From Strigops habroptila (taxonomy: Eukaryota > Chordata > Aves > Psittaciformes > Psittacidae), in assembly GCF_004027225.2 (NCBI RefSeq), contig NC_044277.2, forward strand, positions 97,027,552 through 97,091,551: a DNA stretch of 64,000 nt, written 5' to 3'. Shown here one piece after another: positions 7,858-20,041 of this stretch. Under the pieces are notes generated by a model, which was not told the DNA's origin, searched no databases, and saw only the letters and a list, made by a program, of their open reading frames with translations. The stretch's first letter is position 1. Each line of letters begins with the position of its first letter. The position numbers and the translations under genes were made by a program.

Positions 7858-10800
7858 TCAGGGGGCCGGGCCTGGCTGCCGCCGCTCCTGCATGGAGAAG
7901 GACTGGCTGCGGATGCGGAAGGCCACCTCCTGCGTGCGGAAGGTGAGGCCGAAGATGTCCTCATGGTAGCGGTTCTTGTCCTGGGGGAGCAGGCGTCAGG
8001 GCGGTGTGCCGGGGCACGGTGCTGGCACCGGTGTGCCGCGTGTCCCCAGCCCTTACCCGCAGCTCGCTGATGAAATCCCCCGCCTGCCCCAGCGTCATGC
8101 CGGCTTGCTGCACCAGGATGTGCTGCACCGTCTGCAGCACCTCAGTGGCCATCGTCACATCCCCACACACGTACATGTGCCCGGCGCTCTGGCACAGCAC
8201 CCGGTGCACCTCCGCAGCCAGCTGCGTCCGCAGCACGTCCTGCACGTAGGTCTGGGGACATCGCGGTGGGCTGGCCACTGACACTGGCACGTAGCCACAT
8301 GTCGCCATCCCCACCCTGCCTCTATCTTCATTTCTGTCCTACCCTTGTTTCTGTCCCACCCTTGTTTCTGTCCCCATCCGCATCAGTGTCCCCAGCCCAC
8401 CCCTGCCTCCATCCCTGTAGAGGCATCCTCCACCCTTCTGTCCCCCCACTCCACCCCTGTCCCTCCCGCCTCTGTCCCCATCCTTGTCCTCATCACACTC
8501 CTTGTCCCCATTATACCCCTGGCCTCAGCTCCATCCTTGTCCCCATCCCATCCCCATCCCTGCCCCACCTTGGGGGTCCCTGGCTCGCGGGAGAAGGCAG
8601 TGAGGACCTGGCTGAGGGCCCCCTGCTCCTGTGCCTCCTGCATCTCCTGCCGGTAGATGTGGTCCAGCGCGGAGGAGCGGCAGCCGAACACCAGCACCAT
8701 GCTGCCCAGGGGGCCGCCTGCAGCGGGCAGTGGCTGGGGCATGTTTCTGCAGCCCCTTGCACCATGTCCCCTTGTCCCCACACCCTGCATCACTGTTTCC
8801 CCATGTCCTGTGGCCCACACCATGTCCCTGTGTCTCCTGTGTCCCTGCCACCCTGCCCCCATACTATGCATCCTTGTGTTGCCCCATCCCATGCCACACC
8901 GTACTTGTGTCTCCATGTCCCCAGCCTTCATCCCTTTCCCCTTGTCCCCACCCCTGTGCCCCACATTCCTGCACCACCATGCCCTGTGTCCTCATGCCGC
9001 ATCCCGCCATCCCTGTGCCCCTTGTCCTGCATCTAGGTGCCACCATGTCCTTGTGCCTCCATGCCCCTGGCCTGCATCCCCTTCCCTATGTCCCCGACCC
9101 TGTGCCCCACATCCCTGCATCAACATGCCGTGGATCCTCATGCCGCTTTGTCCTCATGTCCCCATTCCCCATGTTGCAACCCTCCATCCATCCCTGAGCC
9201 TTGTCCCTCATCCCAATACCACCATGTCCTTGTGTCCCCATGCCCCCAGCCTCCACCCTGTCCCCAGCCCCATGTGCCCCTGCTCCCCCATCCTCGCCTC
9301 TGACCTTCTGTCTGCAGGTGGTGCAGCCGCTGCTGCCAGAAGCTGCGGAAGGGCGCGATGCCGGTGCCGGGTCCCACCAGGATGCAGGGGGCCTCGAGGG
9401 TGGGCGGCAGCCGGAACGAGGGGGCCCTGTGGACAGCGGGTCACCGGGGAGTGGGGGGACCCCGGGGCAGCGCCCGGGGAGGGGTGCAGGGGGGAGCAGG
9501 GCATGTCACGAGATGTCCTCTGGGGGGGAACCGCTGGGACATGCCGGTGGGGGAGGCAGGCAGGCAGGGGACAGGCAGGGTTATCCCTTACCCTCGGATG
9601 AAGGCAGGCACCGTGTCCCCGGGCTGCAGCCGTGCCAGCCAGGTGGAGCAGACACCGTAGTGCAGGGGGCCCTGTCCATCTGTGGGGACCCAGGGGGCTG
9701 GAGGGGCTGCGGCAGGCAGCAACCCCCAGCAGGGAGCCCCCCATCGGCAGAGGCGGGGACACCACCATCCCCAGGCAGGGATGGGGGACAGGGGACTTGG
9801 AGCCTGGGATGGTGAATGGGGCACTGGGGGGTGTCCCTGGGGGCTCCATCACATCCAAGTGCAGCACCCGGCACTGTGTGATGGGGCTGAGTGGAATCTT
9901 GGAGGTGCCTGTGGGGGCCTGGAGATGCCCTGGGGACCCTGAAGGTGCCCTGGGGACCCTGGAGATGCTCTGTGGGACCTGGAGATGCTCTGGGGACCTG
10001 GAGATGCCCTGGGGACCTGGAAGAGCCTGAGGGACGCTGGAGGTGCCTGAGGGACACTGGAGGTGTTCTGGGGACCCTGGAGATGCCCTGGGGGATCCGG
10101 AGATGCCTGAGGGACCCTTGAGGTACCCTGGGAACCTTGAGATGCCCTGGGAACCCTGGAGGTGCCCAGGGGCCATGCTTGCGCAAGGGTGCTGGGAGCA
10201 GGCATTGTTGTGCCCATGGCAGGGCAGAAGGTAACAGCTCCCAGGGCCCCACCGCCTGTTCCCATCCCTGCTCCTATCTCCATCCCCACTCACTCTCGCT
10301 GTGGTAGGTGACAACGGCCACGGTGAGGTGGATCTCCCCGGGGCTGAGGCCAGGTGCGGAGCTGATGGAGTAGTAGCGGGGCTGGAGCAGCGGGAGCTGG
10401 GTGAGCAGCAGGGAGGCCGGCAGTGCAACAGAGGGGAACTCCTCCAGCACCTCCAGCAGTGTGGGGCATCGGAACCATTTCCAGTCCTCGTACAGCCGGG
10501 CGTCCTGCAAAGCACCCAGCTGCGTCATGGCCACCACGCCAGCAACCCCAGCTGCCTTCCAAGCCAGGGAGGGGACCAGCATCTTAGCACCCCAGCATCC
10601 CAGCATCCAGCAAGGGAGGGGCCCAGCGCCCCAATATCCCAGTATTCAGCCAGGGAAGGAGCCAGCCAGCATCCAAATATCCCCGCCAGGGAGAAGCCCA
10701 GCATCCCAGTATCCCAATATCGCAGCCAGGAGGAGCCCAGCAGCCCAGTATCCTGACCAGGGACAGGTCAGCATCTCAGTATCCCAGCCAGGGAGGAGGC

Positions 10801-19800: not shown

Positions 19801-20041
19801 GGTGACCAAGCGAGGGGTCCCCATCAAGGCACATTGGCCGGTAGCCCCGGTGTGCGCTGCTGTGGGTGCCGGTGCCGCATGCGCCACCATCCACCCATCC
19901 AACCCCGCCGTAGTCCCCGCGCACCCACCTGCCCCGCTCGGTGCCGACGCTCTCCTCGGGCACGGCGCTGATCTGTCGGGAGCAGAGGCCGAGGCCGCAG
20001 GACCGTGCGGCGCCGGGCAGCACGGCCGGCAGGTTGCCCAT
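7858..20041 (-). CDS. NOS3: Nitric oxide synthase 3 (endothelial NOS)
   Basis: Twenty-six coding exons in gene order: 20041-19929, 19065-18963, 18587-18439, 17863-17701, 17594-17503, 17404-17263, 17186-17047, 16847-16673, 16578-16477, 16384-16190, 16115-16042, 15937-15793, 15693-15589, 15084-15017, 14924-14808, 13708-13534, 13456-13327, 12816-12738, 12153-11966, 11133-10961, 10504-10294, 9679-9592, 9426-9305, 8717-8569, 8251-8057, 7980-7858; 1171 aa (human 1203). The enzyme makes NO and citrulline from arginine, O2 and NADPH. Seen: MGNL myristoylation start with Cys15 and Cys20; zinc pair CxxxxC (Cys76, Cys81); haem Cys166 in [25 protein letters not shown] arginine site; calmodulin segment [10 protein letters not shown] (Thr477); FMN motif [10 protein letters not shown]; autoinhibitory insert with KKKRRQLS (609-616); FAD/NADPH motifs [20 protein letters not shown] and VFGCR; C-terminal RIRSQSF (Ser1158, the human Ser1177 site). 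All introns are GT-AG and every exon junction is in phase. Confidence 0.97.
8325..9300. repeat. C-rich degenerate repeats in NOS3 introns
   Basis: Two blocks (about 8325-8560 and 8740-9300) of CCCCATCC/CCTTGTCCCCA and CCATGTCCCTGTG/CCCCACATCCCTGC units flank the exon at 8569-8717. They are G-rich in the NOS3 transcript. The His/Pro/Cys-rich open frames here come from the repeats. Confidence 0.75.
9895..10180. repeat. Minisatellite in NOS3 intron, unit about 18-20 bp
   Basis: About 14 tandem copies of CTGGAGATGCCCTGGGGACC variants between the NOS3 exons at 9592-9679 and 10294-10504. Confidence 0.85.
10575..10930. repeat. Minisatellite CAGCATCCCAGTATCCAGCC type in NOS3 intron
   Basis: Tandem units of about 28-56 bp containing CCAGCATCCCAGTATCCCAG and CAGCCAGGGAGG, about ten copies, upstream of the exon at 10961-11133. 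Confidence 0.85.
11165..11960. repeat. 800-bp polypyrimidine tract (CCCTTTTCC type) filling a NOS3 intron
   Basis: Almost pure C/T on the + strand (pure A/G in the NOS3 transcript), built of CCTTTCCCTTTTC and CCCCAGCCCCTTCCC units. It fills nearly the whole intron between exons 12153-11966 and 11133-10961. Mirror-repeat pyrimidine tracts of this kind can form triplex (H-DNA). Long Leu/Pro/Phe and Gly/Lys/Glu frames across it are artefacts. Confidence 0.9.
13775..14535. repeat. G-rich minisatellite in NOS3 intron
   Basis: About 760 bp of GGGCTGGGGACAGGG-like degenerate units with interspersed CACCCAGGGCTG, including a run of about 16 G at 13790-13805, between exons 14924-14808 and 13708-13534. 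Confidence 0.8.
15112..15575. repeat. CCCATC hexamer-type tandem repeat in NOS3 intron
   Basis: About 460 bp of CCCATCCCCATC variants fill the intron between exons 15693-15589 and 15084-15017; they are GATGGG in the NOS3 transcript. Confidence 0.9.
17940..18425. repeat. Minisatellite GGGGATGGGGGTGCCCTGGGGCA type in NOS3 intron
   Basis: About 480 bp of 20-25-bp tandem units between exons 18587-18439 and 17863-17701. Confidence 0.8.
18605..18955. repeat. C-rich degenerate repeat in NOS3 intron 2
   Basis: About 350 bp of CAGCCCTGCACCC and CCCCATGCCCCC variants between exons 19065-18963 and 18587-18439. Confidence 0.7.
19320..19400. promoter_or_regulatory. NOS3: Candidate regulatory element in NOS3 intron 1
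   Basis: A GAACAATGG SOX-type site (about 19366) is followed within 20 bp by GTGAGTCAG, an AP-1-type site. Position and motifs are suggestive only. Confidence 0.25.

Follow-up and report, generated by a model that had tools for sequence, protein, structure and literature searches.

The kakapo NOS3 locus: a predicted single-copy endothelial nitric oxide synthase gene with tandem repeats in its introns, within a GC-rich island on a large chromosome

Two described systems are close to the locus analysed here, a stretch of 64,000 nucleotides from the kakapo, Strigops habroptila (C1:97,027,552-97,091,551; the window), which contains the gene NOS3, predicted to encode endothelial nitric oxide synthase (eNOS). 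One is avian NOS3 itself. The 2012 title 'Identification of chicken eNOS gene' (Peng et al.) stands in the reference lists of PMC13308534 and PMC9962381, chicken is named in the legend of a NOS3/ATG9B/ABCB8 synteny figure in a study that used the chicken NOS3-ABCB8 block (PMC13299143), chick eNOS primers are printed in PMC9226774, and a review describes Nos3 expression in chicken embryos, rising after vitelline vessel ligation, the identity of the probe being unchecked (PMC6306789). The other is 'sequence stuttering', an imperfect tandem growth in the introns of chicken dot-chromosome genes, whose exons are intact and whose ohnologues on other chromosomes are unaffected (PMC12954441). There the median intron repeat cover is given as 7-93% for dot chromosomes and as close to zero for the others, and a total of 36 out of 236 introns with exon stuttering are placed on macrochromosomes, making dot location a strong but not exclusive feature, and copies of exon edges in the adjacent intron mark a subset of the cases (PMC12954441). 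Judged from its sequence, the kakapo locus is almost certainly the bird's single copy of NOS3, coding for a conventional eNOS. It is an ordinary gene, and its one noteworthy point is dot-like intron growth inside a macrochromosome. A first-pass annotation of the window had read the sequence correctly but overstated the repeats and assigned the wrong class of chromosome.

The coding span lies on the minus strand (7858..20041), from an ATG at 20041 to a stop codon ending at 7858, and was defined by a splice-consistent model of 26 coding exons of 68-211 bp, together with a Pfam scan and a search of solved structures (PDB). The exon anchors were peptides chosen by eye from a six-frame translation, guided by known features of eNOS (26 of 27 were kept, the other being an overlap in a wrong frame). 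At each junction a script took the best-scoring frame-keeping GT-AG pair, and the model was built without alignment to a reference protein. All 25 introns are GT-AG and in phase, giving 1171 open codons and a stop. As eight of the 25 junctions have one or two lower-scoring in-frame alternatives, the length of the protein may shift by a few residues. The GC content of the coding sequence is 0.677, rising to 0.885 at third positions (GC3). The first-pass annotation had given 26 in-phase coding exons and a protein of 1171 residues between the same two end points, and the model reproduced its coordinates and length exactly; its description of the exons as islands of 70-210 bp matches the measured sizes.

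The Pfam scan of the predicted protein found NO_synthase (residues 103-463), Flavodoxin_1 (504-680), FAD_binding_1 (733-960) and NAD_binding_1 (992-1104) in a single chain, all four above their cut-offs. Motif strings, which were fitted to the predicted protein itself and of which the Pfam scan is independent, were also located. Exon 1 (19929..20041) encodes an MGN N-terminus with Cys15 and Cys20, that is, a putative myristoylation signal and paired cysteines. The zinc motif CxxxxC (residues 76-81) is in exon 3 (18439..18587), RCVGRIQW (165-172) with the haem cysteine in exon 4 (17701..17863) and GWYMSSEIG (337-345) in exon 8 (16673..16847). A calmodulin segment at residues 473-492, which starts in exon 11 (16042..16115) and ends in exon 12 (15793..15937), where the FMN P-loop also lies, and an autoinhibitory loop at residues 606-622, in the region of exon 15 (14808..14924), are predicted from their likeness to the human segments. 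FMN, FAD and NADPH motifs are present, as are motifs for the substrate glutamate and for caveolin. RYYSISS is found in exon 21 (10294..10504), CGDVTM in exon 25 (8057..8251) and RIRSQSFS, an Akt-type serine motif at residues 1153-1160, in exon 26 (7858..7980), which carries the stop codon. The functional meaning of these strings, and their human counterparts, are presumed. Every class of motif listed in the first-pass annotation (catalytic, zinc, haem, calmodulin, FMN, FAD and NADPH) is present among the fitted strings, and the Pfam order agrees independently.

The remaining exons were placed by the splice model, with a motif search in addition for exon 23 (9305..9426). They are exons 2 (18963..19065), 5 (17503..17594), 6 (17263..17404), 7 (17047..17186), 9 (16477..16578), 10 (16190..16384), 13 (15589..15693), 14 (15017..15084), 16 (13534..13708), 17 (13327..13456), 18 (12738..12816), 19 (11966..12153), 20 (10961..11133), 22 (9592..9679) and 24 (8569..8717), all on the minus strand. 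An enzyme of this build would be switched by calmodulin, its reductase half (NADPH, FAD, FMN) passing electrons to the haem half for the conversion of arginine to nitric oxide (NO). The motifs further suggest that it may be anchored to membranes through N-terminal myristate and palmitate, and activated at the RIRSQS serine.

Among the best 60 of 195 rows of solved structures the haem domain was closest to eNOS, which scored 787 bits where nNOS reached 661 and iNOS 610, and an ungapped match to the human eNOS chain 3eah gave 330 identical residues out of 427. Copies were sought in the assembly from which the window comes (1,148,577,936 bases in 89 contigs). The NO_synthase profile (PF02898) gave 21 matches, all 21 candidates having been scored, with seven each on C1 (NOS3), C11 and C14. 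A search with the whole protein gave at least 48 matches, 23 on C1, 13 on C11 and 12 on C14, including one at C14 2.49 Mb that covers just the reductase half, at 40%. The exon compared from C11 was closest to nNOS (144), ahead of iNOS (114) and eNOS (111), and that from C14 was closest to iNOS (142), ahead of nNOS (117) and eNOS (103). These results indicate that the assembly has NOS1, NOS2 and one NOS3. No second NOS3 locus was found in the assembly with the profile or with the whole-protein search, the latter covering 39 of 69 candidates. A second copy was accordingly rejected, the only NOS loci found with the profile being those on C1, C11 (NOS1) and C14 (NOS2). The open frame, the four domains and a haem domain nearest eNOS bear out the earlier description of the gene as intact, and the other intact NOS3 in the same genome that the first-pass annotation had thought of was looked for and not found. 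The assembly holds one intact NOS3 in the ancestral gene neighbourhood, with no sign here that birds lack eNOS.

Tandem repeats were measured with Tandem Repeats Finder at a score of at least 50, the baseline being 20 dinucleotide shuffles of each intron. Repeats covered 30.0% of the 8668 intron bases of NOS3, against 3.1% in the shuffles, and none of its 3516 exon bases; their share was 20.8% of the gene span and 15.8% of the whole window. Shuffles of introns 13 and 19, the most biased, reach 14-15% cover on their own. Seven of the 25 introns had a cover of at least 35%, four had 9-24% and 14 had none, so that the 'at least seven introns' of the first-pass annotation stands and its 'almost continuous' minisatellites do not. 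The seven, all read on the minus strand, are introns 19 (11134..11965; 91%, with a coding strand that is 87% purine), 13 (15085..15588; 88%), 20 (10505..10960; 74%), 10 (16116..16189; 55% of only 74 bp), 21 (9680..10293; 44%), 3 (17864..18438; 37%) and 24 (8252..8568; 35%). Self-similar blocks were found at E 1e-6 within nine of the 25 introns; between introns only 13 and 24 share sequence at this threshold, and growth of the repeats was therefore probably local. Six partly overlapping pieces of NOS1 and NOS2 (in total approximately 7 and 8 kb) contained 0% tandem repeats at a score of 50 and had a GC content of 0.41-0.52. The longer introns of NOS3, with intact exons on either side, have probably grown as stretches of intronic sequence were duplicated locally in tandem, as in sequence stuttering, and the repeats would most likely be functionless, reflecting GC-rich DNA under recombination or replication stress. 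It is plausible that they hamper short-read assembly of NOS3.

The first-pass annotation had called the gene microchromosomal. This was rejected, as it lies at 97 Mb, in a window starting at 97.03 Mb, of C1, a contig of 155,644,563 bp. In 28 stretches of C1 sampled outside the window the GC content was 0.36-0.40 at 50-96.5 Mb (0.39 at 96.5 Mb) and climbed on the low side through 0.47 (96.8 Mb), 0.49 (96.85 Mb) and 0.56 (96.95 Mb) to 0.68 (97.01 Mb) and 0.67 (97.02 Mb). Directly past the window it was 0.65 and 0.65, followed by 0.53-0.64 (97.15-97.25 Mb), 0.40 (97.35 Mb), 0.51-0.58 (97.5-98.0 Mb), 0.49 (98.3 Mb) and 0.45-0.46 (98.6-99 Mb), with distal values of 0.39 (100 Mb), 0.43 (102 Mb), 0.40 (105 Mb), 0.46 (120 Mb) and 0.37 (150 Mb). 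The NOS3 locus lies in a GC-rich island with AT-rich flanks inside a large chromosome. A rise from 0.39 to 0.68 and a return to 0.39 by 100 Mb does resemble microchromosomal DNA, as would be seen had a microchromosome block been wrongly scaffolded, or recently fused, into C1. Against both stand the graded flank on the low side and a window free of N bases (two flanking samples have them, 150 at 96.85 Mb and 73 at 95 Mb, which may be gaps). The telomere repeats count against them too: the assembly has 29 exact (TTAGGG)5 matches, of which the nearest on C1 are interstitial, at 40,076,946 and 122,500,299, and there is none within 25 Mb of the locus, although degenerate arrays would escape this search. 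A recent fusion marked by such repeats was rejected, and an origin of the block from a microchromosome by either route is considered very unlikely.

Several points weigh against reading the locus as a conventional eNOS gene whose introns grew by stuttering. The gene is known here from genomic sequence alone. The top PDB row was full-length nNOS (1556 bits; best 60 of 195 rows), a ranking explained by the lack of any full-length eNOS among those best 60 of 195; it is the haem domain that marks the predicted protein as an eNOS, the reductase half aligning only to nNOS among the matches listed. The copy count of the whole-protein search is a lower bound, 39 of its 69 candidates having been scored. 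Stuttering has been described mainly for dot chromosomes and NOS3 lies on a contig of 155.6 Mb, its median intron repeat cover of 0% is nearer the published non-dot pattern, and repeated exon-derived copies, looked for in its introns at E up to 0.1, were not found. The exon-intron matches at that limit numbered 21, of 12-28 bases and without a shuffled baseline. Three were to neighbouring introns (exon 8/intron 7, exon 15/intron 15 and exon 19/intron 18), each single and of 13-21 bases; exon stuttering in NOS3 was rejected. A gene known only in this way might also be an unexpressed, decaying NOS3 with its frame still unbroken, endothelial NO being made by another NOS, and the NOS3 of Xenopus tropicalis is described as apparently unexpressed in vascular endothelium (PMC10342570). 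Decay is extremely unlikely, however, given the unbroken frame over 26 exons, GT-AG introns throughout, four intact domains, the 330 of 427 residues held in common with the human haem domain and the embryonic expression reported for chicken (PMC6306789). The repeats themselves could be functional, for example as G-quadruplex (G4) or R-loop elements that pace transcription or splicing of NOS3. On the coding strand G4-type motifs make up 27-45% of introns 2, 13 and 19; their C-rich mirror makes up 36% of intron 15 and 53% of intron 18, in both cases without a shuffled baseline. The strand bias flips from intron to intron, however, the GC skew of the coding strand being +0.87 for intron 13 and -0.46 for intron 18, and the sharing of sequence by introns 13 and 24 only also argues against a function, which is highly improbable.

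The neighbours of the gene read here as the single kakapo NOS3 give the order CDK5-ASIC-ABCB8-ATG9B-NOS3-KCNH2-AOC1, the names being based on the domains, on position and on the gene order of human 7q36.1, with which the kakapo order agrees. ATG9-domain pieces at 3466-5331 on the plus strand (two of three above the Pfam cut-off, the first just below) are followed by AATAAA at 7343, ATG9B being tail to tail with NOS3. On the minus strand AGTAAA (7786..7791), the one motif of this kind found for NOS3, is a weak candidate for a non-canonical poly(A) signal of the gene. Human NOS3 and ATG9B overlap at their 3' ends; as the two candidate signals are approximately 440 bp apart, this overlap may be absent in the kakapo. 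A KCNH2-like start at 25826 is head to head with NOS3, with ion-channel and cyclic-nucleotide domains at 43-47 kb, and 10 of the 14 KCNH2 and ATG9B motif words looked for are present in the window. The assignments to ATG9B rather than ATG9A, and to KCNH2 rather than one of its paralogues, are putative. Between the start of NOS3 and KCNH2 lies a degenerate TGGGAC-type minisatellite of approximately 1.9 kb (22056-23961), containing two copies of a 140-bp unit with a 90% match (23471-23745).

Past KCNH2 there is a copper amine oxidase (53516-55504, minus strand). Beyond the low end of the window (stretches L019 and L020) are pieces of an ABC transporter, an ASC channel and a protein kinase. Two ASIC-type N-terminal halves in tandem (L019:3-890 and L019:3570-4178, minus strand) adjoin the ABC transporter; humans have a single ASIC gene at the corresponding place. 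Past the high end, C2H2 zinc-finger coding stretches occur in L009 and L010 (C1:97.09-97.11 Mb), that in L010 being confirmed by Pfam. A reverse-transcriptase fragment near the locus (L015) is presumably CR1, as is the stretch 63661-63999, which matched no Pfam family. The feather/beta-keratin family has at least 150 matches in the assembly, where 150 of 178 candidates were scored, and most of them are clustered on C1, C9, C15, C20 and C23. This family occurs in other reptiles too. Judged from the keratin matches, the ATG9 gene beside NOS3 and the chicken eNOS primers that fall in its exons, the genome is very probably that of a bird. Two of the keratin matches, at C23:1532329 and C23:1302240, fall within open frames as long as 9029 and 6069 codons, which may be long repeats that keep the phase.

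The first-pass annotation also believed that NOS3 had been treated as hard to find or absent in birds. No statement that birds lack NOS3 was found in the literature searched, in which chicken eNOS has been in print, by title, since 2012. The main texts of four missing-gene papers mention none of NOS3, eNOS, KCNH2, ATG9B, nitric oxide and SLC4A2. Two of the four printed chicken eNOS primers (PMC9226774) fell in coding exons of the window, one in exon 26 with three mismatches (0.01 matches expected by chance, estimated for that primer only) and one in exon 24 with two. One forward primer fitted best in exon 21 (5/21 mismatches) and the other in intron 18 (4/19), and neither was counted as placed. 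Bird NOS3 is already known, and is not new.

Compared with human eNOS, which has 1203 residues and the cysteine pair Cys15 and Cys26, the kakapo protein has 1171 residues and Cys15 with Cys20, and its C-terminal tail is approximately 14 residues shorter at the end than the human tail. With vertebrate NOS3, including that of chicken, it shares 26 coding exons (the number in human NOS3), the domain order, the calmodulin segment, the Akt-type serine motif and the ATG9B and KCNH2 neighbourhood. Turtles and crocodilians are described as being without ATG9B at the NOS3 locus (PMC13299143); lizards keep it. In the kakapo an ATG9 gene stands between NOS3 and the ABC transporter, which by itself does not set the genome apart from that of a lizard. 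The leptin gene on chicken chromosome 1p (PMC5550943) is likewise GC-rich, repetitive and on a large chromosome, but its position was long unknown, whereas the chicken eNOS paper dates from 2012. NOS3 is like the stuttering genes in having imperfect local tandem expansions inside its introns only, with intact exons and paralogues free of repeats. A tentative and rather doubtful extension is that stuttering of the dot type acts inside macrochromosomes wherever GC content suffices, in which case the class of the chromosome would not be its cause, but local base composition or recombination would. If this were true, the NOS3-KCNH2 island would be a hotspot of length polymorphism surrounding two major genes of the cardiovascular system. 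NOS3 offers a useful case in which to study how intronic repeats grow off the dot chromosomes, with NOS1 and NOS2 as controls of lower GC content in the same genome.

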